From Melieria omissa (taxonomy: Eukaryota > Arthropoda > Insecta > Diptera > Ulidiidae), in contig OZ020268.1 in assembly GCA_963971225.1 (NCBI GenBank), positions 60,697,900 to 60,761,899 of the forward strand: a stretch of 64,000 nt of DNA, read 5' to 3'. Of this stretch, positions 3,012 through 28,303 are shown in pieces (within the stretch, counting starts at the first letter, position 1; the number at the start of each line of letters is the position of its first letter). A model generated the notes under the pieces. It was given only the letters and a program-made list of their open reading frames with translations, searched no databases and was not told the DNA's origin. The position numbers were made by a program, and so were the translations under genes.

Positions 3012-3073
3012 AAAAGTTTCCCTAATTTTATGAAATTTTTGCCAATTTTGGAAGTTCTAGTTAGAGTAAAAAT

Positions 3074-3225
3074 TGCCTATGAAAAAGCTCCCAACCTGCC
3101 GTTCGGAACCGGCATAAAACTGTAGGTCCCTTCCACCCGCGTACAAAATTCACACGCACAACACAGGTGGTTGCGGGAAGCTAGGCCTTAGTCTCGCGTA
3201 AGCGGGCTGTCGTGCCAATCAATTA
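3074..3225 (+). repeat. SINE-like repeat X, copy 1
   Basis: This segment is repeated in inverted orientation at about 20951-21137. Both share AAATTGCCTATGAAAAAGC at one end, then a word of the type GCCGTTCGGAnnCGGCrT, then AAACTGTAGGTCCC. The same core occurs in the tRNA-headed SINEs at 22156 and 24354, so X looks like a related SINE family with a different head. No tRNA head or poly(A) tail is visible in this copy. Its right side abuts a decayed Tc1 element. Confidence 0.55.
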
Positions 3226-3289
3226 TTAATTATTACTGTATACCTTAACTGCACTTTTTGTTCTGTTTTATATGAATTAAATTCTTGTA

Positions 3290-4670
3290 GTATCAAATCG
3301 GTGTTATTTTTCCAATATAATTTTTCAGCAGACTTCAATGATCAATACTTGCACAATTTCAGCCTTCTAACTGCATTTATATTTCCGGTGAAACACTTTA
3401 GAGGGCAAAATCCTTGGGCAGAGAAGCATACATACACATGACCCTTCTGGGGATGCTTTTCACTTTGTTGAATAAATTTTTCACCTTTTTTCATTCAAAC
3501 ATGTCTAATTTGATTAAACAACACAAAAGTTGATTCATCTGTAAATATTACTTTGGTCCAATCACGATCGATATTTGTGTAAGCCCACTAAAGATGCTTT
3601 TCAATATGCTTTTTTGAAAGCAACTGTTTCGACAAAGTACCGCTACGTGTTATGTCTGATTGCTGAAGCCTGTCGCGAATCGTATGTAAGGGTATATATA
3701 ACCCCTTCTGCGATTATATTTGTTTGGCTCTCAGACTGACCGTTGGGTTTCTTTCAAAAAGCCCAACAATGACTTTATCTTGCCGCTTGAAAGTGGTGGG
3801 GTTTCGGCTTCTTCCTGTTTCCTTTTTCTGCATAACGTTCGGACCATGATACAAATATAGAAGGTAGAACCGCTGTAATTTGTTTTGACACTAAACGTGT
3901 TTATTGACGTTTCTCGTATTTGTCAATAGCTTGGGTCGTGATGCCACTTCGTTGTAATACTAAATTAGGGCTGTTTAAGGTTCTAAGGATTTTTAGATCT
4001 TTTTTAAAATAAACACGAACATTTCAATGTGACTAGTACATTTTGTTGAGTAATATTATTAACTGTTATACAAGCAACAACGTAATAAATAATACAAAGG
4101 TAAATTATTATGTAATTGTTTTTTTTAATTTCTTACTAATATTCATTTTTTTGTGTTTTCAAATTGCTGTTTAAAAACCGTGTCCTAAAAAATTTTCGGC
4201 CTAAAAAGAAACGTTGCATTGTTTACATTTGAAGTTTGAAAAAAAAAACGGAGCTTAAAAACAGGAACAACCCACCAAGCAAAATGTGGGAAATAGGCAA
4301 CTATCGTCAGTGCCAACAAATTGGCGACTCACCGATTAATTGGCACGGCGACAAATTACAAAAACAGTTTGTTTTCTAGTACTTTGAAATATCGAATTGA
4401 ACTAAATATGTTTTGTATTTCAGTGAGATTGATCGTAATTGAAAAATTTTTATTCATTCGTCAACGGTTGATTCAAGCCTAAAACTCGAAATGTTTCTTA
4501 AATAGCACACTCATTTTGGTCATACGTGTCGCAGCGGAAAGGACAAATAATTGATTAAAATGTATGCGTCGACAACCGCAACAATGTACGCTTATGTAAA
4601 AACAGAACCGGTAAATTTTTACTTAAAAGTTAACCGAATAAGCGAAGAACGTTCATTGTTGAACACAATG
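3290..4670 (-). mobile_element. Tc1-like transposon relic, copy 1
   Basis: The reverse strand matches the Tc1-like element at 19589-20860 over two blocks. Block 3290-3858 covers the transposase from its HTH region to the part before the last catalytic residues. Block ~4490-4670 covers the 5' UTR and terminal repeat, ending in CATTGTGTTCAACAATG against CAGTGTGTTCAACAATA in the other copy. About 630 bp between them (3859-4489) is unrelated and replaces the start of the coding region. The 3' end is missing. The copy cannot encode transposase. Confidence 0.75.
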
Positions 4671-4951
4671 CATATGAAAAATGTGGATACGTTTTTATAA
4701 ACAGAGAACCCATTTTTGAGGTCAAAATTAATCATAACATAATTTTCCTCATGTAATGCATTTTGCAAGTCATCCTTGTTAGATCCCTACAAGAACAGTG
4801 ACGGTCATATGACCGACATGCCTGACCGAAGTTTCGGTCAGCTCTCCGAACAAAGTTTCTATCATTTTTGTACAGGCGGTGTGACAAAAATTACCGAAAC
4901 TCTCCTGTACGTGCGATTTTTTTTTCACTCTAACACACACCTTTTGCATAT

Positions 4952-5390
4952 TGTAACGATGAGACAGTCTGTCGCTGTGCAAAGCAACCCTGCCGCTACG
5001 TGCCGTGCTATAATCCAATCTGGCAACGACGGCCGCGATAGTAACTTTTAGTCCAATCTGGCAGCGACGGCCGCGATAATAACTTTTAGTCCAACCTGGC
5101 AATGATGGAAACTTTTAGTCCACTCCGGAATGTGCGGGAACGATCTGCGCGATGGCCTGAGAGGTATAAAAGGCAGCCGGATGCGGCGCAGCGAGTCAGT
5201 CTGGTTTTGACAAGTGAAGTCGCCACGCAGAGTAATTAAGCAAATACTTAAGTGTACGAACAGTAAAGTGTGAATAATAAAGTGACTGTTGGTTTATTTT
5301 ATTGTCTGCGTTTAAGAAACTGACTGTTTCATTTTCAAATTACACAATCCAGAGATACGTAACAGCCCACTAGACATAGTATTCGTAACA
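4952..5390 (+). mobile_element. Solo LTR of gypsy family B, copy 1
   Basis: Starts TGTAACG and ends CGTAACA, 439 bp, flanked by the 4-bp duplication ATAT (4948-4951 and 5391-5394). It carries the family's 38-bp upstream repeats (CGACGGCCGCGATA...TTTTAGTCC), a TATAAAAG box, a downstream AGTCAGTCTGG initiator-like word and AATAAA. No internal sequence follows, so recombination between two LTRs has removed the body of the element. Confidence 0.93.
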
Positions 5391-5473
5391 ATATTAAGAA
5401 AAGTGTGTTTGCTCTGCTCTAACGCATACGTGTTCCAACCTCCAAATATTTCGTTTTTAATGGCCGCCGCCGC

Positions 5474-6299: not shown

Positions 6300-6468
6300 A
6301 TTTCATGCAAATGTATTGGTAAATTCAAAAAATGTTGCGAATGTAGTGGAGTTTCGGTCAGTCGCGTCTTGTAGGGATATTTGTCGTTTGCGAATATTGT
6401 TGTCCAGCAAAGCCCACAAATTTTCGATGACGTTCAGGTCGGGCGATTGTGCTGGTGGTGCCACTACG
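6300..6468 (-). pseudogene. Tc1-like transposase D, C-terminal fragment
   Basis: On the reverse strand this encodes 'PPAQSPDLNVIENLWALLD', the block with the third catalytic acidic residue (the E of VIEN) of DD34E Tc1 transposases, followed by 'NNIRKRQIS'. It continues directly from the fragment that ends at 19539: deleting 6469-19543 joins the two in one frame. The remainder downstream (toward 6240) is frameshifted, and the element's left terminal repeat was not found. Confidence 0.85.
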
Positions 6469-6496
6469 CACAGTGTTGCGAGTAGTGACAAAAATG

Positions 6497-6830
6497 CCAA
6501 AATGCAGCTGTATAAGCGCAAAAATCTGAGTACGAGGTTTTGTTGGAAATACTTCAGTTAAGAGAAAATATTGGATAACATAGAAGTTATGAGCTCTTAA
6601 AGTACGCTCTTCCAGCGTTGAAAAAAATTGTGTACAAACAGCAAATTTTTGCTTTGGCTTTGAGGTAGAATATTTTAAAATAAATTATGAGCAGGTCTCT
6701 AAAAGTTACTATTGTCATAAGTTTTATATAATCTAGGTCTGACAAGATCAACATTTTGCTGATTACTCTTATCCTTGAGCAGTACCGTTATGATGAAAAT
6801 TAAGTATATAAAGCGAGGGAATTTTTCAAG
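6497..6830. other. Internal left part of element F, no gene
   Basis: AT-rich DNA between the left F terminus and the LINE fragment. No ORF with recognisable domains, RNA gene or repeat boundary is visible. Confidence 0.5.
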
Positions 6831-7957
6831 GGCAAAGTCGCCGAAACCGCGGATGATGCCGCTAACTTATTCGCACAGTTTTTCAGCTCAAATTTTGTGA
6901 CGGATACAAACGCTGTTTTGGCAGACACCTTCTATCCCGACTCCTTTTTTTCCTTTGGGTCGTTGACTTTAACCGCCGACGATGTCAAATGGGGCATCAA
7001 CAATCTTAAATTTTCAATGCGTACGGATACAGATGGGCTTTCCTCTGTGCTCTTAAAGAATTGCAGCTCTCTTGTTGAGCCGCTACTACTGATCTTTAAC
7101 AAATCCCTTTCTTCTGGTATTTTTATAGATGCGTGGAAAAAAGCAACAATAACTCCAATATTCAAGAGTGGCAACAAAAATGATATCGCAAATTATAGAC
7201 CCATCTCGAAACTCACGTCGGTGTCTAAACTTTTTGAATGCATAGTCCATGAAAAATTAAGGTTTTGCGTCAACAGTGCAATTTGTCAAAACCAGCACGG
7301 TTTTGTTAGGGGCAGATCAACTCTCCAATCTCGCGATTTTTGTCGAAGATTGTCTGTCTGCTTTTCAGGAAGGAAGTAAATTAGATACTATCTACACGGA
7401 TTTTGCTAAAGCCTTTGACAGAGTTTGTCATGCAATTTTCACTCTCCAATAGACAGTGTGTTGTGACTGTTGATAATCACCTTTCTCAGCCGTTTGTTGC
7501 TAGTTCCGGCGTTCCTCAAGGTAGCATACTTGGTCCTCTGTTGTTTGTTTTATTTATTAATGACATTGGCTCCTGCTTTTCGTTTGCAAAATTTCTTCTA
7601 TATGCGGATGATCTGAAGATTTATGCTGCGATTAATACTATGGCTGACTCTCTGGCACTCCAGGCTGACCTAGATAGAGTTCAATCGTGGTGTACGAGAA
7701 ATCACCTTTTCTTAAATATAAGTAAGTGTTTTCATGTATCTTTTTCTAGGAAACACAGCCCTCTGAACTTGTCCTACTTCCTGTCTGGCTCACTGTTGCA
7801 GTCAGTCCAAGAAATCAAAGATTTAGGTGTGTTTTTCGACACAAAACTTTGTTTCTCTAGCGATATCGATTTCATTATTTCCAAAGCATATGCCATGTTG
7901 GGGTTCGTTCGTCGGAATAGTACGTCATTCTCTGACCCATATACGTTCAAACTGTAA
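6831..7957 (+). pseudogene. Non-LTR retrotransposon reverse transcriptase fragment
   Basis: Three frames together cover RT motifs in order: 'WKKATITPIFKSGN...YRPIS' (motifs 0-1), 'HGFVRGRST', 'DTIYTDFAKAFDRV' (motif A, first catalytic Asp), 'GVPQGSILGPLLFVLFINDI' (motif B) and 'LLYADDLKIY' (motif C, the two catalytic Asp). A frameshift lies near 7320, and a short deletion with frameshift follows 'AFDRVCH' near 7430. The endonuclease and ORF1 are missing on the left, and the thumb/C-terminus stops at 7957. The clade is uncertain: Jockey/CR1/I-group by motif style. Confidence 0.85.
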
Positions 7958-8399
7958 ATAAATAAAAAGTGAGTTCAAATTTTAAAAGTGATTTAAAAAA
8001 AAACGTTAAATATCACTTTTGAAATTTTTTGATATTTTGTTTTGGCAAGTATGTAGATTATGCTGTACAATTTTTAGCTGCGCATATTTGCGCGAATGGA
8101 AGTTATTGGCATTTTTCGGTGAAGACTTGAGTGCAAATTAGCGATATTTTCACAGTTTGGTTGAAAGCCAATAGCAATCGGTCAATTAGTGCTCTGCTGG
8201 TGATGGAAAAATTTGTTGAAGATAGCTTCCGAAAATCAATTACGATTACCATTATATTCGAAATAGAGGGGTTAATGGAGTTTCGACAGTACACTTTTTG
8301 TGTCGTACAGAACCAAAAGTTGACAACCTTACTACTTCAATTGTATGGGAGCCGCCCTCTGGAGGGAATTTTTGAACTTTAATTAATTTTGTATTTTTG
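7958..8399. other. No gene seen between LINE fragment and solo LTR
   Basis: AT-rich. One 83-codon open frame (8131-8382, +) has no recognisable motif. This is probably interior sequence of element F or decayed LINE sequence. Confidence 0.5.
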
Positions 8400-8403
8400 G
8401 TAT

Positions 8404-8828
8404 TGTAACGATGGGACAGTCTGTCGCTGTGCAAAGCAACCCTGCCGCTTCGCGCCGTGCCATAATTGAATGTGGCAACGACGGCCGCGATAATAACTTT
8501 TAGTCCAATCTGGCAACAATGGTCGCGATCATCAGGGAAGCATTTAGTCCACTCCGGAATGTGCGGGAACGATCTGCGCGATGGCCGGACAGAGTATAAA
8601 AGGTGGCCGGATGCGGACAACGAGTCAGTCTGGTTTTGACAAGTGAAGTTGCCACACGAAGTGATTAAGCAAATACTTAGGTGTACGAACAGTAAAGTGT
8701 AAACTGTGAATAATAAAGTGACTGTTGGTTTATTTTATTGTCTGCGTTTAAGAAACTGACTGTGTTTTATTTTCAAATTACAAAATCCAGAGATACGCAA
8801 CAGCCCACTAGACTTAGTATTCGTAACA
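8404..8828 (+). mobile_element. Solo LTR of gypsy family B, copy 2 (short-repeat subtype)
   Basis: TGTAACG...CGTAACA, 425 bp, flanked by GTAT on both sides (8400-8403; 8829-8832). It differs from copy 1 in carrying fewer upstream repeat units and a CAGAGTATAAAAGGTGGCC promoter. The same subtype forms the 5' LTR of B6 at 57721. Confidence 0.93.
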
Positions 8829-9025
8829 GTATTAAGGAATGTTGACGATTTTTTAATAAATCATTCAAATCGATTAAGTACTTTGCCAGATACGATGTTT
8901 CTTCGCTTACTTGACTACATTTACAAGTGTGGAGCCAGTTCCATTGAAAATTACTAGTTTTGTATGGCAGTCACCTTAAGAGTTGGATGTAGCGGTTAGG
9001 TATGTATAGAAATAATATTCGAAAG

Positions 9026-9334
9026 TGTAGTATTTAATAGTACGGTGGCATCACCCGAGCAGTGGCACTGTTCAGTGTGCATTGGCAACACTCGAGCGAT
9101 GGCACTACTCGCGGCATGATGGCTGACGTTGCCGCCAAAAGCCAAAGTAGCAAGTGAAAAACGCGCGAAAGACACAGGGAGACGAATAAGTGACAGCGAA
9201 CGAGACGGACGTGCCGAGCAGAGTCGGCAAGACACCAGTTACCTCATATATTGTTTTTTTCCAATCCTTTGTATTACACACTTCTATTAAATAAAGCAAG
9301 TAAGCTGAAAGTTACAAAAAATAAGCTTACTACA
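9026..9334 (+). repeat. 5' LTR of element A
   Basis: 309 bp, nearly identical to the 3' LTR; I noticed a single substitution close to the start (AATAG versus AATGG). An AATAAA lies at 9290-9295. No clear TATA box is visible, so transcription may be initiator-driven. Confidence 0.93.
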
Positions 9335-9336
9335 GT

Positions 9337-9349
9337 TCAGAAGTGGGAT
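9337..9349 (+). promoter_or_regulatory. Primer binding site of element A (tRNA-Leu type)
   Basis: TCAGAAGTGGGAT directly behind the 5' LTR equals 13 of the 18 bases of the tRNA-Leu-complementary site seen complete in family B. The first bases (TGGTG) are not present, so priming would use an incomplete match or a slightly internal part of the tRNA. Confidence 0.6.
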
Positions 9350-9378
9350 AAAAGACCTACTGCGAGTGTCGGCCAACA

Positions 9379-9474
9379 ATTTCACAACAACGTAAGTTAG
9401 TGCAGCGTCCAGCGGAGCACCCGCCTCGATTTCACAACAACGCGGGTTAGTGCATCGTCCAGCGGAGCACCCAC
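9379..9474 (+). repeat. 50-bp direct duplication in the element A leader
   Basis: A ~46-bp segment beginning ATTTCACAACAACG occurs at 9379 and again at 9429, an exact 50-bp period with a few substitutions. It lies in the untranslated leader between primer site and gag. A role in packaging or translation is possible but not shown. Confidence 0.8.
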
Positions 9475-9490
9475 TAACGAATCCAGCACC

Positions 9491-10578
9491 ATGAATCGAG
9501 CGACGAAGGGCCAATTGATGGCTGAGCTGACGGCTGCGGACATTTCGCCGCCGCCGAACTCGACACGCACCACTTTGATGGCGCTCCACGCGGAGGCCGG
9601 TCTTCCGGGTGGTGACGAGGTCGATGTACTGGAATGCGACGAAGACGCCGCCGCTGAGATCCAACGGCTCGAACAGCGGGCCGCCCTACTTGAGCTGCGC
9701 GCAAAGGTGCGCGCACTAGAACAAGAAACGGCGTCCACGTCGGGCCGACGTAAATTTGATTTTTCCGAAATGGACAGTGCAATTGCCGACTTCACGGGCG
9801 ACGACTCCTATGGCATCCGGAAGTGGATCGCCGACTTCGAAGACATTTCAGCCACGCTCGATTGCGATGATCGCGATCGATACATTTGTGCGCGCCGCAA
9901 GTTGAAGGGATCAGCAGGTGTGTTCCTCCGCACAATTAATGTCACCAATTGGGCGGAGTTGCGTCCTATGCTAGTGGCTGAGTTCGATCGCCGTACGAGC
10001 CGCCAAGAAGTCTACAACCAGCTGCGTCAGCGTTTTAAGAAGAAAAACGAGACGAGCTTCCGGTACGTCCTTATTATGGTGGAGATTGCCTCACATGCAG
10101 ACATCGAAGCCAACGAAGTCATTGAAGCGATAATTGCCGGCCTACAAGATCGTACCTCCGATATTTCGATCTTGTATGGCGCAACCGACATCCAGCAGCT
10201 GAAGGAGCTGATGGTTCGCTACGACAAGCTGAAATTGCGCCGCTCCGAAGTGCGCCTTCCGATTCCAGCTGTCACACCTCCGACGAGCGCCACCCACACC
10301 AAACTTTCTACTTCCACCGCAGCTAGTGGACCACGCTGCTTTAATTGTTCCGGCTATGGGCATTTTTCCTCTGAGTGTCCAAAGAGCGTCGCATTCCTGG
10401 TTCGTGCTTCCGATGTGGCAACCTTGGCCACCAACAAGCTGACTGCCCGTCAGCCCCGAAGAAACAACGAGCCGCGTTTGTGGGCGTCCACAGTGCCCGA
10501 CCTATCGCCCGAGAAGATGACGACGGTGATGACGAGGGGACAGCTCAGACCATGAGCGCACTTCAGATGGTCGAGTGA
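9491..10578 (+). pseudogene. gag: gag of element A, frameshifted between zinc knuckles
   Basis: The start is the first ATG after the leader (9491). Residues ~60-80 are Glu/Leu/Arg-rich (likely coiled coil), and a capsid-like region follows ('FTGDDSYGIRKWIADFE' to 'LRQRFKKKNE'). Near residue 278 is a first CCHC knuckle (CFNC...GHFSSEC). A one-base frameshift near 10380 puts the second knuckle (CFRC...GHQQADC) and the acidic tail into another frame that ends at 10578. Two tandem knuckles are usual in this lineage. Gag would assemble the particle and bind RNA; this copy would make a protein lacking knuckle two. Confidence 0.85.
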
Positions 10579-10579
10579 T

Positions 10580-11286
10580 TCCAAATGCACAGGTGTAATT
10601 GGTTGTAATTCTCTTCTTGATACGGGTAGCCCCGTTAGCTTTATTACAATATCCTTGGTTCCGGAGTTTGTCAAGATTGGACAACCGAGGCCATCGAACT
10701 TTTGCGGATTGGGCAAGGCTAATATAGTCACTCACGGTGAGCTGGGTGTTGCTGTGCTACTGCAGAATCGTGTGCGGATAATTCCTGTGTTGGTTCTGTC
10801 AGACGACGCTCTTCCGTTCCCGATGCTGCTTGGCAGGGATGCACTCCAGTCATTTAAAATCCTACTGTATTCTTGCCCAATCATTCCTATTCCTGAACAT
10901 AGTTCTGTATTTAACGTTTCTGGCAATGCCATATTAAATGAACCAAAAGACGTGTGCGTTTGTAATTCACCTATGACTTCCGAAGTGGCTCAATTGAATA
11001 GTGTAAGTGAAAGTGGGGGCTCATCCAGGCGAATTCTCATTAATCGGAAGGGAATTGTTTCAAATTTCTTTGCCACTCCGCGTCAAACATTGTCGCGGCC
11101 TGGTGCCATTGAGGCGCTTGATGAGTTCCAAAATTCTCAGAATCCTTGGGTTCTTGTATCTTCCGACGAAATTGACATTGATCCGCAGCTTGCTCCACCG
11201 TTCCGTGACTGCTTACGCCACGGGATTACCTCCGAATATTTGAAGTTTGATCAAAGTTCGGTGACTGTCCCGAATTATGATATTTA
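10580..11286 (+). pseudogene. pol: pol of element A, part 1: protease region
   Basis: The aspartic protease active site 'LLDTGSPVSF' is encoded from 10613, followed by a conserved 'LLGRDALQSF' flap-side motif. The frame runs open to the LINE insertion at about 11287, where it enters the poly(T) of the reverse-strand LINE. The frame is open upstream of the first ATG, so expression as a Gag-Pol fusion by frameshifting is likely (inference). The rest of pol resumes at 16086. Confidence 0.8.
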
Positions 11287-11624
11287 TTTTTTTTTTTTTT
11301 TTTTATTTAACAGATAATACAGGCATATAAGATACAATCTTTTGCATGCCAATTAGGAACACATTCGTTTTAAGCATTACACAATAAATAAAATATCATT
11401 ACAATGTTTAATAATTTACAAAGAAAAATCTTAACTATGTGTAAGTGAAAGTAGAGAAGTAGAGTAAAGAGTAAAAGAAAAGTTTGAGATGTTATGAGAA
11501 GTGTTTGAAGAGTAGATGCTTAAAGTTACTACTGCCCGAAATACATTTGATTGCACTAGGGAGCGAGTTCCAAGACCTTATGGCGCTAACGAAAAAAAGC
11601 CTACTGGAATTTTTTAAATTATGG

Positions 11625-14226
11625 CTAGGAAAGTTTTTCAAAAAGGTAGCAGGGACGCTTCGTATGTATAAGTTTATGTAAAAACATACAGTTTCGTGCT
11701 TCTAAGTAGCTTTTGAGATCAAGACCAAGCAACTGTCTACTATAAGAAGAAACGTGATCCCCTTTCTTTAATCCATAGACGTAACGTGCAGCATTGTTGT
11801 AGGCAATAAGCAGTTTATGCTCCGACCTAGAATCAAGTTTGCTATAAACAACTTCTGAATATGTAATTATGGGTAAAATTAGCTGTAAAACCAATTTTCG
11901 TCTTGTCTCACATGGTACGAATGCAGCAGTCATTCTAAGATTTCGTAATGCTAGATATATTTTGCTTACGACCGAACATCGCAACCAGGAACATCGCAAA
12001 GGGAGAGCGGTGATTTGGAGATCGGGAGAACGTAGGACTTTAGTGGATTAAGCTTGAGTTGGTTCTCGCAGGCCCATCTATAAATGGAACATAGGTCTTC
12101 ATTTACCCTCACACATAAGTCCTCAACAAGACCTACAGGCCTAGACAGATAAAGTTGGATGTCATCCGCATATGCATGCATAGACACATGGTTACAAACA
12201 CTGAAAATGTCATTTATAAACATAATGAAGAGCAGCGGACCAAGTACTGAGCCTTAAGGGACCCCTGTATTCACTAAATTATAAGAGGAAAAGTTACACC
12301 CAACCCTAACCCTCTGAGATCGGCCATGTAGATAACTTTTCAAAAGTTTCACCGCACTATCCGCAAACCCAAAGTAACATTTGAGCTTTTGACACAAAAT
12401 TGAATGATTTACGCAGTCAAATGCCAAAATCCAACAAACACAGTAAGGTAATTTTACCAAGGTCGTAAGGTATTCTTATGTCATCCAGGACTTTAATAAT
12501 AGCTGTGGAACAACTATGCGCCGGACGGAAACCTGATTGATGGGGTGACATTAGTGCAAACATGTCAATGTGACTAGAGATCTGCTCAGCCATGAGAGAT
12601 TCGAAGACTTTTGAGAGTGAGGACAATATGCTGATAGGTCGGAAGTCACCCGGAAGTGAAGCCACTGATTTCTTTGCTACAGGAACAATTGTAGCCACCT
12701 TCCAAATTTCCGGAAAACACGAACTCGTGAAGCAGTGATTTATTATATGCGTGAGGGGACCAAGCACATAGGGAAGAATAAGCTTAATAAATTTGATGGC
12801 AATCCCATCCTCACCAACAGCATTTGATTTTATTTTACTGATGCAACGAATCACATCAAGTTCACTAACAGTGTCAAACTGAAAACTACAAGGGGAGACG
12901 GCAAGTCTATCTAATGAACACAGGTTAGGCGTGCAAGACGAGCTAGACACAGAACTGGCAACAAAGTAATCATTTAGTACATCAGGGTCAAGACAACAGG
13001 TATCCGAATTTTTACTGCACACTCCGACACTTTTCAGGTTATTCCAAAGCTGCTTGGGCGGTAGAGAAGGGCGTAGCTTAGAGCTAAAGAAATTCTTTTT
13101 GGACTTTCTGAATATAGAAACAGCTTCATTCCTAGCCCTACGGTCTCCCAATTGTAGTCAGTTGGATTTCTCTTCCATTTTCTATAGGTTTTATGACGCT
13201 TCTTTAGGGCCAGTTTCACTGCAGCAGTAAACCAAGGACAGCTGCTATTGATGACGCGACGTGTACGTATTGGCACATGAGTGTCAAACAATTTGGAAAT
13301 CCTATCAATCAGGATATTCAGTTTATCATCAACTGAAGAGTACCACCAGCATTCAGACCAATTTACAAGTGACAAGTCATTCAACAAACCAACAGGATCA
13401 ACGGACCTATAATCACGGAAGGAGAGAGTATTTTCAACAGTAACAGTATTATTGTATTCAGAGTACAAAAAATTAAATCATGATCCGAGATAAATGATAT
13501 TTGGTCGAACAACAACAGCGAAGAAGTATCAGAGACAACAAACATATCCAACAGGCTAGGACAGGCATTGGCCGCAAACCTGGTTGGCATCATAGTATTC
13601 ACTACACTAAGGCCTACTTCAGCCACGCTATCAAGAAACTTGCAGGCAAGGCTGTCATTGGCAAGAGCATTAACATTAAAATCACCACATAAAACAAAAT
13701 GATCATAGTCAATCGCATAACAGGATAATGAAGCAAACAAAGGGTCTAAGCTACAGTTACGGCTAGGATTGTAGACACAAGAGAGCAACACTTTAGTTTT
13801 GTTGTCAAAGATTTCAATGTTCAGAAACTCCACCTCTGATCCAGAAGAGTTACTCAGTACATTGACCTTCAAGTCAGCTTTGCAATATATGGCAACTCCT
13901 CCCCCTCTCTTGGCAGATCTATCATTGCGGAAAAGTTTAAAATTATTTAACATTAGGTAAGAATCATTCACATCATTCTGAAACCAAGTTTCAGAGACAC
14001 AAATAACATAAACAGAGGAGTTCTCAAAGGTGTACCTAACGCAGTCAAGTTTAAAATCGTTTAAACTGCGTGCATTAAAATGAACGATTTTTAGCCCCGA
14101 ATGCTGCTTGCACAAAACACTGATTAACGTTTTATAATTATCGCTTGCGCCAGAGTCGGAACTATTAATATTAAGCATAATAAAAATAAATATAAGTTGC
14201 GCAACAGGTGACTGAACTAAAAGCAT
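11625..14226 (-). pseudogene. LINE ORF2: endonuclease and reverse transcriptase, several frameshifts
   Basis: Reading leftward: the endonuclease domain (14226-13381) shows 'NARSL', 'VSETWF' (metal-binding Glu), 'RGGGVAIYCK', 'LCGDFNV' and 'SDHDLI' (catalytic His). A linker follows in other frames (13468-13034). RT motifs follow: 'FRPISILSSLSKVFE' and 'HQSGFRPAHSCSTA' (13151-12417), then 'AFDCVNHS' (12460-12254). The motif B glutamine codon is a stop near 12255, where GVPQGS is expected. 'AYADDIQLY' (catalytic Asp pair) lies in 12223-11966, and the C-terminus ends near 11625. At least five frame breaks make it non-functional. Confidence 0.88.
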
Positions 14227-14475
14227 CCAGATTGGGAAATATAGACAGCTCTAAGATTGTAGAGAAGGAATGGTGCACAAGTAGGTTGAAAAAGAAAACG
14301 ACGAAGAGAGTATGAGAGAGAGCAAAAAAGAGATAGACAGTAAGAGTAGGCAGAATTAAGGTTAAAATTACAACTAAAGTAGAGTGCACTAATAAATAAA
14401 TATAATATATATTTAGTTGTAAGGCACATCTTGACCAAAAAGTACCCATGTTTAACAACGCGTAGTCCCACATTT

Positions 14476-15874
14476 CTATAATCGGTACCCTATCTTCCGT
14501 TTTCTCGCCTCAAGCTGATAAAGATACACAGGGCATTCTCTACTCGTTGAAGAGTGATTTTCATCAAGACCTAAGCGCCGAGTTTGATTCGTGCGAATAC
14601 AATTAATGCATTTATTAATCGCCTCTTTACTGCAGTCACTAGTTTTGTGTTCTCCCAAGCATTTTGAACATGTTTCCTTGTTTTTACAATTTGCCGCCTT
14701 ATGATTAAAGCCCTTGCACTTAAAACAACTCAGGACATCCACGCCATCATAAATCTTGCAAGTTTCCCACCCTACATACAGTCTTTCAGCCGCAAGGAGT
14801 TTCGGAAACGACTCTGCATCCGTTTTAATTAAGGCATTGAAGTAATTTCCGGTTCCTCGTTTCACTTCGTAAATTTTCACCACAGCCATCTCACACGAAC
14901 TGATGCTTTGATTTTGCTTTTTGATCCCACTGACTAGATTTTCCTTATCCAATCTCTGCTTTATGCCCACCACAAGTACTTTTGGTTTAATGACCGTCGG
15001 TATTTTAATTTCGTACTCAGCTCCCAGTTTTTTCAGATAACACTCCTTTGATTTTCTCCCGATCCATTTCAGTGTTGCTTTCTATTACTACAACGCCATT
15101 GCGATTAGCTTTTACATTCGAAAATTGCAAATTCAGGGGGTCTACTTTTGCAGCCAGTTCCACTTTAGTCCTCTCACCCGCTTGCTTATTCTTAGGCTTA
15201 ATATTTAACTTTAGTTCATTTTTTAATTCTGGCAATACTCTTTTCACTTGTGCTCTTTGTTCACTTCGCACCACATCCGCAAATGATGGGTTGGCACTAC
15301 TGATTGTCCCACTATTATTGTTTACAGTTTTCGCAGCACTCATTACTCGTTCGCTTTCTTTCTTTATTATTTCAGCATGTTGTTGTATTTCTTTGGACAC
15401 CTCTCGTATTTTTTCGTGTTCGTTTTGAACCAATTTGGCTTGCTTTACCAAAATGTCCACCTGATCCCGTGTTGTACCCAAGTCAGCCACATTAATTTCA
15501 CATTTTTGTTGAACTGCCTTAACATATTCGACTCGTTCAGAGTACCGAGCTTCGATCGCCTGAAGCAAACTCATGATTTCAGCTTCATTTCTTTCAAGAG
15601 CACGCACAAACTCGGTTTTATACTCCTTGAGCTGATTTGCATTTCTTTCCACAATTTCGTTCACCCGTTGGAGCACCAAGTCAACATTATAGATGTAAAG
15701 GACACAGTCATCACACATAAATTTGATTTTTGCACATTCATCCAGCATTCTAAGGCTACATTGGTCCAGTGCACAGCATTTTGAAGCAGAGTGATATATT
15801 TTGCCACACACTCCTACACACCGCACACCCGATTCACCACGTATCGCGCCCTTGCACTTAGCGCACTCGGGCAT
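14476..15874 (-). pseudogene. LINE ORF1: PHD-like finger, coiled coil, zinc knuckles
   Basis: The first frame (15874-15017, 285 codons) starts 'MPECAKCKG' and has a Cys4-His-Cys3-like pattern over residues 4-56 (CxxC, C-GKIYH, MCDDC), typical of the PHD-type fingers of CR1-group ORF1. A long Glu/Lys/Gln-rich coiled coil follows over residues ~75-180. The second frame (14973-14476) encodes zinc knuckles (CFKCKGFNHKAANC, CSKCLGEHKTSDC, and a CxxC). A small frameshift near 15000 separates them. ORF1 proteins bind LINE RNA. The gene is broken at this one visible point. Confidence 0.82.
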
Positions 15875-16085
15875 TTCAGCCCAATTTTAAAATTTTGGCG
15901 ATAACAGGCACAACAAACAGGTATATCAAAAGAAAAATGAGTCACTGTCTCTGTTTTAACAACTTTTAGAATGTTGTGATAAATGTTTTTGATAATTAAA
16001 CAAGTTAATTCGCAGCTCAAAATTACACGTCCAAACACGATTCTTCTTCTTCTCTCTTCTGTTATAACACTAATGGTTCAAGGTA

Positions 16086-18628
16086 TTGGTGGGAGCCTTG
16101 GTCACAACCACTAGCGTACTTCGACGTATGACGATACGCCTCACCACCGATACGCCGTTCTTTTGCTCGCCTCGGCGACTCTCTTACCGCGAGAAGGATG
16201 AAGTGAGTGCGATCATAAGTGACCTTCTGCGACGCGAAGTAATCAGAGTCAGCGATTCACCCTATGCTTCACCTATTGTGTTAGTTAAGAAGAAAAATGG
16301 TGAAACGCGCATGTGTGTTGATTATATTCCGTTAATTGACGATTGCCTTGAATATCTCGGCAATAAGAAAATATTTACGTTGCTTGATCTCAAGAATGGT
16401 TTTCACCACGTGAAAATGGCGGATGACTCGACGCGATACACTTCTTTCGTAACCCCGAGTGGTCAATACGAGTACATCCGAATGCCATTCGGGCTGAGAA
16501 ATGCACCCTCAGTGTTTCAGCGGTTCATATCACGAATCCTTAAGCCTTTTACCGATACCGAGCATATGGAGTTGATAATCGACGTCCTGCGCTGTCTTGC
16601 TCGTAATGGACTAGAGTTGCGATTGTCTAAGTGCAAGTTTGCTTACGAACAGATTGAATATCTGGGATACAATGTCTCAGCGTCTGGTATTACTCCCAGT
16701 GGGGACCATATACACGCTATACAAAATTACCCAGTGCCAAAAAACTCTAAGGAGCTACATTCATATTTGGGATTATGCTCATATTTTCGGCGGTTTGTCC
16801 CGTCATTCTCGGTCATTGCCCGTCCTCTGAATAATCTTACGAAGAAGGAGGTCCCGTTTCATTTCAATGATGAGTGCCGAGAGGCCTATGAAATGTTGCG
16901 TACCGCTCTTACCTCCGCCCCAGTTCTTACGATTTACGGCCCGAAGCGTGAAACCGAGCTGCATTGCGATGCAAGCGCAAAAGGCTTCGGTGCCGTTTTG
17001 CTTCAGAAAGGCGATGATGGGAAATTGCATCCAGTGTCGTACTACTCGAAGAGTACAACGCCTCAAGAAGCCAATTATCACAGTTTCGAGTTGGAAACTC
17101 TTGCTATTGTCTACGCCCTCCGCCGATTCCGCACTTATTCGGAAGGCATTCCATTTAAAATTATTACTGATTGTAACTCACTAACTCTAACATTAAATAA
17201 ACGAGAAATGAATCCGCGAATCGCTCGCTGGGCCCTTGAATTTGAAAATTATAATTATTCCGTTTCCCATCGACCTGGCGCCCGTATGGGTCATGTGGAT
17301 GCTCTTAGCCGGTGCCATATTGTTTCTGTCATTGGTTCCGAAGATATTGATTTCCAAGTGAGGGCCGTACAAAACCGCGACCCAGTTATCTCTAAATTGA
17401 AGGTTAGTTTGAGTGAAGGTGAGTCAAAATCGTATGCTATGCATGACGGAATTGTTTACCGACAGGACCGAAAGGGGGATCTATTCCTCTATGTGCCCGG
17501 TGAGCTTGAGGAGAATGTGGTGCGGCATACTCATGAAAAGATTGGCCATCTCGGTGTTACGAAGTCTATGGACCAGCTTAAATTACATTACTGGTTCCCT
17601 GACATGCAACCGAAAGTTGAAAGATGTATCCGCATTAAGTGCATTCTGTATTCCGCCCCGACTCGTACTAACGAGCACAATTTATATAATATCCCGAAGC
17701 AGCCCGTTCCATTCCACACGATCCATATTGACCACTTCGGTCCCCTGCCGTCACTTCAGTCCAAACGAAAGCATATTCTGCTGGTCGTCGATGCCTTTAC
17801 TAAATATGTAAAATTGTATCCGGTCGTATCGACAAGTACGCGTGAAGTATGCATTTCGCTCAATAAGTATTTTGAGTATTATAGTCGCCCTTCGCGAATA
17901 GTGAGTGACCAGGGAACATGTTTTACGTCTCTCGAGTTTACATCTTACCTTTCGGATAAAAATATCGAGCACGTAAAGGTTGCGTCCCCGCAGGCAAATG
18001 GTCAAGTTGAGAGAGTGAATCGGACGCTTAAAGCGATTCTGGCCAAATTGAGCGAGCCGCTGGCTCATTCCGATTGGGTGCGCCAGCTAGCGCATGTTGA
18101 GTACGCACTGAACAATACGGTTCACCGGTCAATTAAAACGGCCCCTAGCAACTTCTCTTTGGCGTTTTGCAGAGGGGGTGTGAAGTGGATCGGCTTACCG
18201 AATTCTTGGATGAGAAAGATGTGAACTCCGTCGGAAGAGATCTAGAGGTTGTGCGAGATCAGGCCGCTGTTGCCATTCGGGAGAGTCAAGATTACAACTT
18301 AAAGTGCTTCCATGAGCATAGTCGACCGCCCAGGGTTTTTGACGTGGGAGACTTTGTCGTTATTCGAAATAATGATACGACCATTGGCACCAACAAGAAG
18401 TTTATTCCGAATTTTAAGGGTCCATATGTGGTAATCAAGAAGCTGCCTCATGACCGCTATGTCGTAGGCGACATCGATGATTGCCCCATTACCCAACTCC
18501 CCTATCAAGGCATCCTTGAAGCCAACCATATTCGCAAGTGGGTTGAGCCTCCAAGTAACGAAGTAATTGAGTCGCTTCCGCAACACCTCATTGAAACTAA
18601 TTTACATCTTCAGCCTTCAGCACCCTAG
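16086..18628 (+). pseudogene. pol: pol of element A, part 2: RT, RNase H, integrase
   Basis: RT motifs 'SPIVLVKKKNGETRMCVDY', 'LLDLKNGFHHVKM' and 'MPFGLRNAPSVFQRF' are present. Two in-frame deletions are visible. About 14 residues are missing after 'CVDY', and a block after 'ILKPFTD' that should hold the catalytic YxDD box is gone (near 16555). RNase H follows ('LHCDASAKGFGAVL', 'FELETLAIVYAL', 'ITDCNSLT', 'HVDALSR'), then the integrase H2C2 region, 'IDHFGPL', 'VSDQGTCF' and 'GQVERVNR' (D, D, E). A frameshift near 18165 moves the C-terminus to the second frame, ending at 18628. Confidence 0.9.
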
Positions 18629-18774
18629 TTTTAATGACCAGCTGTTCAACCATTGTAAATTAAGTTCCTTTTGATTGTATTGTGTGTAGTAGGATGTAAG
18701 CTCACTTATGTAGTATGTAAGCTCACTTATGTATATCGATTGATCGGGCCGATCAAAGTGTCAGAACGGCCGAC

Positions 18775-19083
18775 TGTAGTATTTAATGGTACGGTGGCAT
18801 CACCCGAGCAGTGGCACTGTTCAGTGTGCATTGGCAACACTCGAGCGATGGCACTACTCGCGGCATGATGGCTGACGTTGCCGCCAAAAGCCAAAGTAGC
18901 AAGTGAAAAACGCGCGAAAGACACAGGGAGACGAATAAGTGACAGCGAACGAGACGGACGTGCCGAGCAGAGTCGGCAAGACACCAGTTACCTCATATAT
19001 TGTTTTTTTCCAATCCTTTGTATTACACACTTCTATTAAATAAAGCAAGTAAGCTGAAAGTTACAAAAAATAAGCTTACTACA
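18775..19083 (+). repeat. 3' LTR of element A
   Basis: 309 bp, TGTAGT...ACTACA, followed by the AAAG target duplication. It is nearly identical to the 5' LTR, so the insertion is recent relative to the decay of the internal ORFs. The internal deletions were probably copied from an already defective RNA helped in trans (inference). Confidence 0.93.
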
Positions 19084-19087
19084 AAAG

Positions 19088-19499
19088 GGAAAATAAATGG
19101 GGGTCAGTCTTACATATGGTACATCTGGGACCAACCTGAGAGCAACGGGAGCCCATTTTTTTAAAACTTTGGGGTCAGTCTAAGATTTTAACCCTCTAAG
19201 AGCAATTTCTGAGAAGCCGTGGAGCACTTTATCGCGATTTTATTTTCAATCACTTTTGAAAAAAACGCATTTTATCTATATACACATTTATAAATAAATT
19301 TATATTAAAATTCAATTATTTTAAATGTAGCTTTTATGAACTAAGATAATTTTCATTGTTAATATAAAGTTTTTTCAAATCCGTTTGTATGGGAGGTAGT
19401 CGAAGTTTTGGTCCGATTTAATTGAAATTTTGCACAGTAAGTTCTTTACTCATACACTCAACTGTATACCAAATTGCATTTATATACGACCACTCCTAC
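19088..19499. other. Right interior of element F, no gene
   Basis: AT-rich. It includes a 'GTATGGGAGGTAGTCGAAG' word of a kind often met in fly repeats. No coding sequence was recognised. Confidence 0.5.
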
Positions 19500-19588
19500 T
19501 ATTTTGGTCACTCCGCTATATGAACTCGCAACACTGTGCTACGTGGGGGCAGTTCCAAATCAGCCAGGTTTTAACAATATCCGACTTA

Positions 19589-20860
19589 CAGTGTGTTCAA
19601 CAATAAACGTTCTTTGCTTATTCGGGTAACTTTTAAGTAAACATTTACCGGTTCTGTTTTTAGATAAGTGCACATTGTTGCGGTTGTCGACGCATACATT
19701 TTAATCAATTCTCTTTGTACTTTCCGCTGCGACACGTGTAACCAAAATGATTGTGCTATTTTAGAAATGTTTTGAAGCGAGCTTTTTGACGAAGTATCCT
19801 AAGGGGCCTAAATGGTCAGTTGAAAAATCTGCAAAATATCTTAAAACCACTTCCACGTTTGTTAAGAGGTGGTCTGAACGTTATGCAGAAACAGGAAACG
19901 TTGACGACGAACCAGGAAGAGGCCGAAAACCCACCACTTCCAAGCGGCAGGATAAAGTCATTGTTGGGCTTTTTGAAAGAAACCCAACGGTCAGTCTGAG
20001 AAAAGCAAACAAAATATTATCGGAGAAGGACGTGCATATATCCTTAAATACGATTCGCGACAGGCTTCAACAATCAGACATAAAACGTAGCGGTACTTTG
20101 TCGAAACGGTTGCTTTCAAAAAAGTATATTGCAAAGCGTCTTCAGTTGGCTTACACAAATATCGACCGTGATTGGACCAAAGTAATATTTATAGATGAAC
20201 CAACTTTTTTGTTGTTTAATCCAATTAGACATGTTTGAATGAAAAAAGGTGACAAATTTATTCAAAAAAGTGAAAAGCATCCACAGAAGGGTCATGTGTA
20301 TGGATGCTTCTCTGCCCAAGAATTTTGCCCTCTAAAGTGTTTCACCGGAAATATAAATGCAGTTAGAAGGCTGAAATTGTGCAAGTATTGATCATTGAAG
20401 TCTGCTGAAAAGTTATATTGGAAAAATAACACCGATTTGATACCACAAGAAGATAACGACCCGAAACACAAAAGTAAACTATGCACTTATGTTAGATGAA
20501 AGAGGATCCCGATATTGCAACTTTGGATTGGCTCTCACAGTCACCAGATGCAAATCCCATAGAGAATGTTTAGTCTATAATGAAAGCTAAGATATCAAAG
20601 AAGAATAAAAAATCATCAAAACATTTTATTCGATTTCTCAAAAGAACGTAGAGGTCTCTTTCCGTGGAATATGCTGAAATTTTGGCTGCCAGTTGTCGCC
20701 AAAGATGTCGTGCTATTATAGATTATGCAGGAGATTGGACCCCATATTAAGCATTCTGTCGAAACTTATAATAATATCTATTTCTCAAAAATAAAACATT
20801 TTTTTAAATAAATGTAATGTACACTCTGTGAGAGAAGAACGTTTTTTGTTGAACACACTG
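19589..20860 (+). mobile_element. Tc1-like transposon, copy 2 (inserted in element D)
   Basis: Inverted termini CAGTGTGTTCAACAATAAAC (19589) and CAGTGTGTTCAACAAAAAAC (read from 20860) are flanked by TA (19587-19588; 20861-20862). The 1272-bp length is normal for Tc1. Removing the element and one TA joins the flanking element D sequence into one open frame through 'QDNDPKHKSDIVKTW', which confirms the boundaries. A second, truncated copy lies at 3290-4670. Confidence 0.93.
19786..20750 (+). pseudogene. Tc1-like transposase, degenerate
   Basis: The N-terminal 150 codons (19786-20238) are open and contain the paired-type HTH ('SAKYLKTTSTFVKRWSERY'), a GRGRKP hook-like basic motif and the first catalytic Asp in 'VIFIDEPTF'. 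A stop at 20236-20238 ends that frame. Downstream, 'EDNDPKHKSK' (second Asp) and 'SQSPDANPIEN' (third residue) can be read with further stops and shifts. Full-length family proteins are about 340 residues. The start is uncertain because the ORF opens within the HTH region without a clear initiator context. Confidence 0.85.
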
Positions 20861-20950
20861 TATGTTTTGGGTCGTTATCTTGGTAAAACCGAAAGTTTTC
20901 GCGTATACCCAGTTTCTCGGCACTTTGAATCAAATTGGTTTTAAGTATAC

Positions 20951-21137
20951 TTCTTCTTCTTGACTGGCACGAAAGCCCGATTACGAGACTTAGGCCTGGC
21001 TACCCGCAACCATCCGTGTTGTGCGTACGAATTTGTACACGGATGGGAGGGACCTACAGTTTTATGCCGATTCCGAACGGCGAGTTGGGAGCTTTTTCAT
21101 AGGCAATTTTATTCTCAGAGGTTTGCCATTTCCTGTT
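20951..21137 (-). repeat. SINE-like repeat X, copy 2 (inserted in element D)
   Basis: Reverse complement of the repeat at 3074-3225. It interrupts the element D coding sequence between 'YLSMLK' and 'NLIQSAEKL'. Imperfect 13-14-bp flanking words (AGTATACTTAAAAC and AGTATGCTAAAAAAC, read on the reverse strand) may be its target duplication. Confidence 0.6.
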
Positions 21138-22155
21138 TTTTAGCATACTGAGGTACTTATTTTTGTCCATTATTCCCTCAATGAATTCCAACTGGCCCAC
21201 ACCAGTTGCGGACATACAGGCCCAAACCATCACACTACCGCCACCATGCTTAACAGTAGCTTTCAGGTTTTCTTTGTTAAGTTCAGTTTTTGGTTTCTGC
21301 CGAACATATCACATTCCGTCGGACCCAAAAACATTGGACTTGGACTCGTCCGCAAAAATGACGGTGTTCCAGAAGTCAGAGGTCTTGTCCATATTGTAAC
21401 GATAAGACAGTATGTCGCTGTGCAAAGCAACCCTGTCGCGCCGTGCTATAATTCAATCTGGCAACGACGGCCGCGATAATAAGGGAAACTGTTAGGCCAA
21501 CCTGGCAATGATGGAAACTTTTAGTCCAACCTGGCAATGATGGCAACTTTTAGTCCAACCTGGCAATGATGGAAACTTTTAGTCCAACCTGGCAATGATG
21601 GTCGCGATCATCATGGAAACCTTTAGTCCACTCTGGAATGTGCGAGAACGATCTGCGCGATGGCCGGACAGGTATAAAAGGCAGCCGGGTGCGGCACAGC
21701 GAGTCAGTCTGCTTTTGACTAGTGAACAGTGTTGCTAGAAAATTTTGAAGACAATAGCCAGATCGTTGACGAAAAATAGCTAAAAAAAAATGTATTAGCT
21801 AAAATTTTATAGCTAAACAGAAATTGCTAAACGCACTGTATTTTATTTAAAAAATATATTTAATCTTTTCGTTAGTAAATGATGAATTTCATTTGTAGGA
21901 ATAGGAACGCTTTCTTACACTTGAAGTTGTAACCAAACATAACTTTTAATCCAGAAACAGAAACAAAAATTCAAATTATATTACTTTCTTTGAGAATAAA
22001 TAATATTTACATACATTTCAGTTTTAATAGTAAGAATACTTATTATTACAAACACATTTCAAGTTATAAACAACAACCAACAACAAACATAACTTTTAAT
22101 CCAAAAACAAAAAAATAAATTATAATTATATTGCAGTTCTCTAAAATATATAATA

Positions 22156-25533: not shown

Positions 25534-26047
25534 ATTCAACGCACAAATTTTGTAAGAAATCTTTCGGCTCAACCATAGTATAATTATTATACTATGGGCT
25601 CAACTAAGTTTTGATTTTTAAAATAAGGGCAGCTTTAACCAAAAAAGCTAAAAAATAGCTAACTTTTAAATAAAAAAGCTAAAAAAAAGCTAATAGCTAA
25701 AACCAAATTTTCATAGCTAAACACCGAAAATAAAAGCTAAATCTAGCTATAAAATCGCTAAACTGGCAACACTGCTAGTGAAGGTGTCACACGGAGTAGT
25801 AAAGCAAATACTTAAGTGTAAAGACAGTGAACTGTAAATCTGTGAAATAAATTGATTGTTGGTTCTTATTGGCTGCGTTTGGATAATTAATGTTGTTTTA
25901 TTTTCAAATTGCACAATCCAGTGATACGTATCAGCCCACTAGAACTAGTATTCGTAACATTTGGTGTCAGAAGTGGGATTGTGGAAAATTGAAAATAAAC
26001 AAAAAAAAAGTAAATAACTAAATAAATAAAATTATAAAAGCACGGAC

Positions 26048-26639
26048 ATGGTTAAACTCGAGCTGCTGAAGGTAGACCAGCTGAAGAAGGAGCTGGCTGC
26101 CTGGAATTTGCCGACTGCTGGCGGAAAGATGGAGTTGCAGTTGTGCTTGCGAAAAGCATGTGAGGCACGAGGCGTCGATTGGACTGTGCACGAGTTCGGA
26201 GCGCAAGAACTAGAGGCGTCGGCCAAGGCGGAGGAATCGCCTGCTGCTGCTGCGTCGCTGCAAAGTACGGCTGCCGCCGCTGCGCCACTACAAGCATTGG
26301 ACATGAGCCAGCTAATGGTTGCACTTAAAGGCATGCTCGAGACTTCCAACCGTGAAATGGCAGAGAAGCTGGAAGCTACGAATCTCGAAATATCGGCAAA
26401 AGTCGAGACTGCAAATCGCGAAATGTCAGCGAAGCTGGAAACTACGAATCTCGAAATTTCGGCAAAAGTAGAGACTGCAAATCGAGAAATGGCGGAAAGT
26501 TCTTCGCGCATAGAGCAGAAGGTGGAGGAAATTTCCAATAGGCTGAACGTGAAAGTTGAGCATCTCGAGACGCGAATAGACAATTGGGACAAACGAGTTG
26601 ACGAAATGGGTGAATCCCTGAACAGACGAGTCGACGACC
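26048..26639 (+). pseudogene. gag: gag of B3, N-terminal part: SAP domain and hendecad coiled coil
   Basis: The ATG at 26048 gives a 5' SAP-like motif (residues ~2-40: 'LLKVDQLKKELAAWNL...GGKMELQL'), a DNA-binding fold unusual in Gag. Then four exact 33-nt units (26363-26494) encode an 11-residue repeat of the type AKLETTNLEIS / AKVETANREMS, predicted to form a hendecad coiled coil, followed by heptad-like 'VEHLETR'. The frame is cut at 26639 by element E and continues at 34158; deleting E with one 5-bp duplication restores it. Confidence 0.88.
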
Positions 26640-26992
26640 CACAGTGGCATTTTTATACAATCTAGTCGCTCGAAATTAATTACAAGCTGAAAAATTAACA
26701 TATTACATTCAAATTAAGATCATGTGTTAATATGATACTCCGGAATCAGATACCGACGAATTTTTTTTAGATCGGTCAACGACCACGCCCATTTGTGGTA
26801 CATAACCAATTTAGTAAATTTAAAGCAAAACACAAAGTAATAAACTTAACCAATCTAAGTTATCGGGACATGGTACATTATGTTCCATTACATTTGGTAA
26901 ATTCAAAGCAAAAGACAAAGTTAAGAACTTAACTAATCTAAGCATAAAATAAACTTTATGTTATAAAAACTTAATAAACTTGTAGATATTAT

Positions 26993-27609
26993 TCAGCAAT
27001 TTGTGTGTGCTTCTATTGTGGAAGCGTATTGAGGATCTGTGAGCAGGGAAAGAGCTTCGTCGTTAAAACCATTACCCTTTTTAAAGGCTTATTGGCGGGT
27101 TTTGGATATGGATGTTATTAACCCTCTGATGCCCAACAAGGTCCATAGGGACCTATGGCGTTTTCAAAAGCAATTATTTTGTATTTTATACGTTTTTGCC
27201 TATCTGTTTGTAGTAAAAATTCATATATGTTTACTAAAAAATATACACGAAGCTTAGTTTTTGGCTTTCCAAACACATCTATACACACATTATGTAACAC
27301 TACGTTATACAATTACACGCCTTATATGCAATATTACAAAAGAGTTCCCTGGGGACCTTGTTGGGCTTTGGCCGTTAACAAATTTATCGGTTATCGCAGG
27401 GTTAAAGGATCAGAAGTAAAAAGTAAGGCATAAGTAAGATCTTTCAAGCAAATCACATGGGGAAAACCAATGTTTGATTCAAGCCATGAAGCAAATTTGT
27501 CCACAAAACTTCGCGTTCTGCAACCCAAAAGTCGTATATCTCTCTTCTTGTTACTGCCATTTTTTTGGAAAGGGGCAGCTAGGGGCAACAAAATCCCTAA
27601 GGAATACAT
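26993..27609 (-). pseudogene. Possible Transib transposase C-terminal remnant
   Basis: Reading leftward from 27609 the protein contains 'CLKDLTYALLFTSDPL'. After removing the TTAA MITE (27118-27405) it continues 'ITSISKTRQ', a stop, then 'NGFNDEALSLLTDPQYAS', ending near 26993. The 'LLxTSDPLI' block resembles, from memory, the extreme C-terminus of Transib proteins. No catalytic DDE residue is included. The assignment leans on the CACAGTG ends and 5-bp duplication of the surrounding element. Confidence 0.45.
27118..27405. mobile_element. TTAA-flanked MITE (piggyBac-like), copy 3
   Basis: TTAA at 27118-27121 and 27402-27405. The left end is CCCTCTGATGCCCAACAAGG and the right end, read in reverse, starts CCCTGCGATAACCG and contains GCCCAACAAGGTCC. 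A palindrome AGGTCC-ATAG-GGACCT (27139-27154) lies just inside the left end and a degenerate version inside the right end. It is 280 bp long without coding capacity and is inserted in the coding relic of element E. Confidence 0.78.
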
Positions 27610-27999
27610 TAAGAAATGACAAAATATTGTAAATAACTAAAAATTATAGTAATGCGGCGCAATTCAAGCTTTTGGCAACATTTTGAATTCACATTTTCAT
27701 ATATTTCATTCAAAAAAAAAAAATAGGACACTTTTTTATAGTTAAAATTTTACAAAAGAAACATACAAAACATATTGAAAACATATTGTAACGATAAGAC
27801 AGTCTGTCGCTGTGCAAAGCAACCCTGTCGCTACGTGCCGTGCTATAATCCAATCTGGCAACGACGGCCGCGATGGTAACTTTTAGTCCAATCTGGCAAC
27901 GACGGCCGCGATAATAACTTTTAGTCCAACCTGGCAATAATGGAAACTTTTAGTCCACTCCGGAATGTGCGGGAACGATCTGTGCGATGGCCTGACAGG

Positions 28000-28036
28000 T
28001 ATAAAAGGCAGCCGGATGCGGCGCAGCGAGTGAGTC
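28000..28036 (+). promoter_or_regulatory. LTR core promoter of family B
   Basis: TATAAAAG at 28000-28007 is followed about 30 bp downstream by a GAGTGAGTCT word (GAGTCAGTCT in other copies, matching the insect TCAGT initiator). The same TATA/initiator pair is found in every family B LTR in the window. Upstream repeats of 38 and 29 bp are candidate enhancers. Confidence 0.75.
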
Positions 28037-28117
28037 TTGTTTTGACAAGTGAAGTTGCCACACGGAGTAATTAAGCAAATACTTAAGTGTACGAACAGTA
28101 AAGTGTAAACTGTGAAT

Positions 28118-28123
28118 AATAAA
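28118..28123 (+). terminator. Polyadenylation signal of the family B LTR
   Basis: AATAAA in the 3' half of the LTR, downstream of the initiator and conserved among the copies (one copy, B6 5' LTR, reads AATAGA). In the 3' LTR the equivalent signal would define the 3' end of genomic RNA. Confidence 0.65.
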
Positions 28124-28236
28124 GTGACTGTTGGTTGATTTTGTTGTCTGCGTGTAGGAAACTGACTAAGTTTTATTTTCAAATTACACAATCCAGAGAT
28201 ACGTAACAGCCCACTAGACTTAGTATTCGTAACATT

Positions 28237-28254: not shown

Positions 28255-28303
28255 TGTGGAAAATTGAAAGTAAACAAATAAATAAAATTATAAAAGCACG
28301 GAC

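Follow-up and report, generated by a model that had tools for sequence, protein, structure and literature searches.

Ends that start with CAC and target-site duplications of 5 bp are given in a passage of PMC7204232 as features common to Transib transposons, RAGL transposons and RAG. Within Transib itself, spacer length varies according to a passage of PMC6941560, and PMC8289069 describes most families as symmetric at their ends, nonamer similarity being slight or absent. A passage of PMC8355894 lists spacers of 12 or 23 (±1) on opposite ends for Transib5 of Drosophila melanogaster and for Transib2, N1, N2 and N3 of Anopheles gambiae (second-hand, citing Kapitonov and Jurka 2005), together with symmetric spacers of 20–22 in other Transib families. 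The present analysis concerns element F, located at 6469–19538 of a 64 kb stretch of DNA from the dipteran Melieria omissa (contig OZ020268.1) that is referred to throughout as the window, the ends of which resemble a 12/23 pair of recombination signal sequences (RSSs). With a probability of roughly 0.75, F is judged from its sequence to be a Transib-type DNA transposon of the cut-and-paste class, non-autonomous and present as an old, decayed copy. An initial sequence-only reading of the window had suggested that a 12/23 Transib pair would be notable and had described insect Transib ends as 23-RSS-like. The first suggestion falls because such pairs are already in print for the Drosophila and Anopheles families named in that passage, and the description proved incomplete, 12/23 asymmetric families having been described alongside. 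A 12/23 pair on a Transib element is not new in kind, there being a few mosquito and fruit-fly precedents.

Direct reading of the F boundaries established the architecture of both ends. On the plus strand, the left copy of the target-site duplication CTACG (6464–6468) abuts the left heptamer CACAGTG that forms the outer end of F (6469–6475), followed by a 12 nt spacer, TTGCGAGTAGTG (6476–6487), and the nonamer-like word ACAAAAATG (6488–6496), which agrees with the V(D)J consensus ACAAAAACC at 7/9 positions. Read inward from 19538 on the minus strand, the right end comprises the same heptamer (19532–19538), a 23 nt spacer, TTGCGAGTTCATATAGCGGAGTG (19509–19531), and the nonamer-like word ACCAAAATA (19500–19508; 6/9 to the consensus), with the identical right copy of CTACG abutting it at 19539–19543 (plus strand). 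Each end of F thus has a CAC-starting, RSS-type heptamer, and the outermost 15 nt of the two ends, heptamers included, form a perfect inverted repeat. Both spacers start with TTGCGAGT and end with AGTG, the right being 11 nt longer, and AGTGACAAAAATG on the left is identical at 11/13 positions to AGTGACCAAAATA on the right, the latter displaced by the 11 extra nucleotides. The heptamers, nonamer-like words and spacings claimed in the sequence-only reading, the scores of 7/9 and 6/9, the letters common to the two spacers with their one 11-nt block of difference, and the 5-bp flanking duplication were all exact. A second A-rich word is present at the left end (6496–6505, plus strand), readable as GCCAAAATG at spacing 20 (5/9) or CCAAAATGC at spacing 21 (6/9).

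When compared with the systems described above, F most closely resembles the 12/23 Transib families (Transib5, Transib2 and N1–N3) in combining a CAC heptamer and a nonamer-like word with a spacing of about 12 on one end and about 23 on the other, a comparison made with the descriptions of these families in part of PMC8355894 rather than with their letters, and with an F layout taken from one copy. The CAC heptamer and the 5-bp duplication are also those of Hztransib, a symmetric Transib; however, Hztransib-type elements differ from F in that their ends are alike and show little or no nonamer similarity, as outlined in a passage of PMC8289069. With RAGL transposons such as ProtoRAG, F has in common the CAC start, the 5-bp duplication and asymmetric ends, but the spacing differs (27/31 in ProtoRAG), and these elements carry RAG1-like and RAG2-like genes, none of which was found in F. 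The likeness extends to the vertebrate V(D)J signals, with the consensus heptamer at both ends, spacers of 12 and 23, and nonamers at 7/9 and 6/9, although in F they are the ends of an insect transposon. How the 12/23 rule arose has yet to be settled in studies of how antibody-gene assembly evolved.

F is a genuine insertion. The sequence-only reading had held that removal of F plus one CTACG restores an interrupted Tc1 frame, and the minus-strand reading of this empty site (the flanks with a single CTACG; ...KTWLIWNCPHVVAPPAQSPDLNVIENLW...) indeed gave a gap-free alignment with Sleeping Beauty transposase that spans the join, covering residues 3–39 of the 64 given (E 5e-05) with the join at residue 10. 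Only seven aligned residues (3–9) fall entirely within the shorter flank, and three of these (W, L and N) agree with Sleeping Beauty. The empty site also matched Pfam DDE_3 (E 1.4e-05, under the curated cut-off), and as this match does not cross the join, the Sleeping Beauty alignment is more informative. A second Tc1 copy becomes recognisable by similarity from 19589, which lies 45 nt past the right CTACG; on that side, therefore, the element that hosts F is reduced to a short remnant. The two Tc1-like copies in the window (3069–4670 and 19589–21110) lie in inverted orientation and are 88 to 93% alike across three aligned stretches.

The native DNA of F amounts to only ~1.43 kb (1426 nt when joined; 33% G+C), the remainder of the 13 kb consisting of later insertions; the end points 6469 and 19538 proposed at the outset are sound, but F itself is not a 13-kb element. 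Once the native pieces are joined, no stop-free frame exceeds 94 aa, and a Pfam search of the 9 longest of the 18 stop-free frames of at least 33 aa in the separate native pieces detected no transposase family. Weak matches to BC10 (E 0.1), RRP14 (0.0081) and YvrJ (0.057), all under the curated cut-offs, were rejected. Given that neither a long frame nor a transposase match was found, F looks non-autonomous, and the absence of a transposase gene is what any such element shows.

The best evidence for the Transib type of F is the presence of CACAGTG at the ends of both F and a second element, G, because CAC starts and 5-bp duplications are common to Transib, RAGL transposons and RAG. If the assignment is correct, a Transib (RAG1-like) transposase encoded elsewhere in the genome would have bound both F ends, cut beside the CAC of each heptamer, and joined F to a staggered target, thereby leaving the 5-bp CTACG duplication within the Tc1 relic. 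Of the original proposal that F is a non-autonomous Transib-type element with 12/23 ends, the first part gains from the true insertion, the heptamer, the 5-bp duplication, the lack of a detected transposase and the existence of G, while the second has been seen for one copy only.

Element G (26640–34152), which starts CACAGTGGCATTTTT..., was located by a scan of the window for inverted repeats with abutting duplications, which allowed any first three bases and a separation of 100 to 20,000 nt between the ends. Across all start trinucleotides, F and G were the only 15/15 inverted repeats with exact abutting 5-bp duplications in the 64 kb, and none of 60 shuffles, limited to CAC starts, yielded a score above 13/15. 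Like F, G starts with CACAGTG; its 40-bp ends (26640–26679 and 34113–34152) are 38/40 identical (95%), and its duplication, CGACC at 26635–26639 (plus strand) and 34153–34157, cannot be read as 3 bp. G is positioned in the gag frame of a long terminal repeat (LTR) element, a frame that is open across the empty-site join, and paralogous empty sites occur in other gag copies as a single CGACC at 28943–28947 and as CAACC at 58748–58752. Without the LTR element nested in it (27787–33856; duplication ATAT), the native length of G is ~1.44 kb. On these grounds G looks like a non-autonomous Transib-type element, with a symmetric layout similar to that of Hztransib. Searches with the G end patterns gave no match in a viral contig collection, and those with the F end patterns none in viral and genome contig collections; neither source comprises insect genomes, and zero was the expected outcome.

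The F left end (6476–6505) was observed to resemble the G right end (34113–34152) in inverted orientation (GCGASTAG...ACAAAAATGC). A likeness of this order was reached by 1/2000 shuffles as the best of 8 comparisons, and within the window by 31/12,792 stretches, 2 of which are F's own and 10 G's, with 12 other places; as evidence of relationship it is probably weak. A segment inside G at 27122–27401 starts with CCCT, ends with AGGG and has TTAA flanking both sides, features resembling those of a piggyBac-type miniature element.

The 12/23-like layout is real in this F copy. To gauge its strength, the 60 nt lying just inward of each 15-bp repeat were dinucleotide-shuffled 20,000 times. None of the 20,000 shuffles attained the two nonamer scores at precisely 12 and 23; a fraction of 0.0009 attained them within 1 nt of these spacings in either arrangement, and 0.001 contained the common 13-mer block (11/13) at some offset up to 24. 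Free local alignment of one F end with the other was less discriminating: its score was reached by 0.013 of shuffles, and 35-nt pairs drawn at random from the window reached it at a frequency of 0.0128. Counting both strands, the window has 368 CACNNNG sites, of which the F left end was the only one with at least 7/9 at spacing 12; as a control that tells against the 12/23 pairing, 8 sites had at least 6/9 at spacing 23, the F right end among them, and an unrelated site at 22498 (minus strand) scored 7/9 at that spacing. In favour of the pairing, AGTGACAAAAAT or AGTGACCAAAAT, with up to one mismatch, recurs at 3 other places in the window, both strands included. Overall, the 12/23 reading of F beats chance at about 0.001–0.01, for a pattern chosen after looking.

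A number of considerations weigh against the identification of F as a Transib-type element with a 12/23 pair of ends. A passage of PMC2686171 marks RSS-like heptamers and nonamers on the ends of unrelated elements (Tc1, Tc3 and herpesvirus repeats), and an RSS-like appearance alone therefore proves little; RAG, for its part, acts on many heptamers other than CACAGTG (PMC9723617). With no transposase in the F frames searched, Transib membership rests on the ends and the duplication length. That length is itself ambiguous: because CTACG starts with C and ends with G, the F boundaries can alternatively be read as a 3-bp TAC duplication and a 16-bp inverted repeat beginning GCACAGTG. Transib duplications are often of the CGNCG type, and the F target, CTACG, is only a partial fit to it, as is that of G, CGACC (n = 2); a passage of PMC8289069 describes the Transib target as GC-rich. 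As to the spacing, the 12-spaced heptamer and nonamer of one end and the 23-spaced pair of the other are known from a single copy of F, and all of the chance figures for it were computed after the pattern had been seen. The A-rich word at a spacing of 20–21 on the left permits a near-symmetric 20–21/23 reading, and G, with ends of the same type as those of F, is symmetric and has no nonamer-like word above 5/9 at any spacing from 3 to 59.

Two of the competing explanations are sub-cases of the favoured Transib assignment, and their likelihoods were rounded separately. The first, judged about evenly balanced between true and false, is that F belongs to a Transib-type family with ordinary symmetric ends, the present copy having lost or gained 11 nt in one of them, or the true inner motif being the A-rich word, at spacing 20–21 in the left end and 23 in the right. 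The symmetric ends of G are as such a family would have them, and CCAAAAT is common to GCCAAAATG/CCAAAATGC (left end, spacing 20/21) and ACCAAAATA (right end, spacing 23). Most Transib families, moreover, are symmetric and hardly or not at all nonamer-like according to PMC8289069, and symmetric Transib spacers of 20–22 are mentioned in PMC8355894. However, the 12/23 match AGTGACMAAAAT (11/12) is longer than the common 7-mer, and 0.012 of random pairs have a 7-mer in common at positions no more than 3 nt apart, a frequency which indicates that this word is weak too.

The second sub-case, that the F family has conserved 12/23 asymmetric ends deployed as a pair by its transposase, as in the Anopheles and Drosophila cases, is entertained tentatively, and the 12/23 layout as a family-level trait is correspondingly doubtful. 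The chance estimates of ~0.001, the identity of the heptamer to the V(D)J consensus and the precedents listed in the passage of PMC8355894 all favour it; against these must be set the one copy, the choice of pattern after looking, the different ends of G, and the less striking free local alignment of the F ends (0.013). The fuller proposition that a living or recent F family is fixed as a 12/23 pair, with the V(D)J-consensus heptamer and recognisable nonamers, beside a symmetric-ended G family would appear rather unlikely. Were it true, one species would present a natural contrast of asymmetric and symmetric Transib ends. A genome that pairs a 12/23 Transib-type element with a symmetric one would be a good natural setting in which to ask whether insect transposases read the spacer.

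Distinctly improbable is the assignment of F to some other superfamily, for example hAT, with its CAGTG ends, or one with 3-bp duplications, in which case the heptamer match would be incidental. Both the possible TAC duplication with its 16-bp repeat and the presence in the F ends of CAGTGTTG, which we take to be a hAT-like start, speak for this view. In hAT elements, an 8-bp duplication abuts CAGNG ends; in F the sequences abutting CAGTG, ACTACGCA and TGCTACGT, differ, leaving the 8-bp duplication without a match, and a hAT origin was accordingly set aside. Neither does a 5-bp duplication abut CAGTG (ACGCA as opposed to TGCTA), and G has the same heptamer with a 5-bp duplication unreadable as 3 bp and a paralogous empty site. 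The suggestion that the F ends are a chance inverted repeat with no insertion has nothing to commend it beyond the general caution due to AT-rich DNA, and was rejected on the basis of the restored Tc1 frame and the scan in which F and G were the sole 15/15 repeats with abutting 5-bp duplications and the 60 CAC-start shuffles reached at most 13/15.

The native DNA of F survives as four plus-strand pieces separated by later insertions. The first (6469–6818), the inner edge of which is good to a few bases, is followed by a 5'-truncated non-LTR retrotransposon fragment (6818–7965, plus strand) with an RVT_1 match and an A-rich tail; its edges are tentative. The inner edge of the first piece was read from a tentative 8-bp duplication, AAAGCGAG (6810–6817) and AAAGTGAG (7966–7973), that is 7/8 identical. 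The second native piece (7972–8403), with an outer edge also good to a few bases, is separated by a plus-strand solo LTR (8404–8828; duplication GTAT at 8400–8403 and 8829–8832) from the third (8833–9025). There follows a Ty3/gypsy-type LTR retrotransposon (9026–19083, plus strand) flanked by AAAG at 9022–9025 and 19084–19087, and then the fourth native piece (19088–19538). The LTRs of the Ty3/gypsy-type element (9026–9334 and 18775–19083) are each 309 nt and 99.7% alike, and a non-LTR element is nested within it on the minus strand at ~11628–15886. A protein search with the gypsy pol placed 1108 of 7983 scored candidates at E up to 1e-50; among the best 120 of the 7983, the 5 with an organism named were all from insects, namely Ceratitis capitata, Diabrotica balteata, Lasius platythorax, Eupeodes corollae and Trachymyrmex cornetzi.

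Elsewhere in the window, one LTR retrotransposon family is represented by copies at 25777–36653 and 57710–62646, with further LTRs of the same family at 4942–5398, 8395–8836, 21384–21726 and 50918–51391. These LTRs contain tandem repeats of ~29–38 nt, and the gag of the family has a SAP-like domain at its start followed by coiled-coil-like matches. On the minus strand of 51372–54787, a Gypsy env-like match (PF07253; 51372–52481) and a reverse transcriptase/RNase H match (53657–54787) lie on either side of a DUF4817 helix-turn-helix match (52498–53208), and the three may or may not constitute one element. A tandem array with a 259 nt unit repeated in 2.8 copies occupies 48932–49652.

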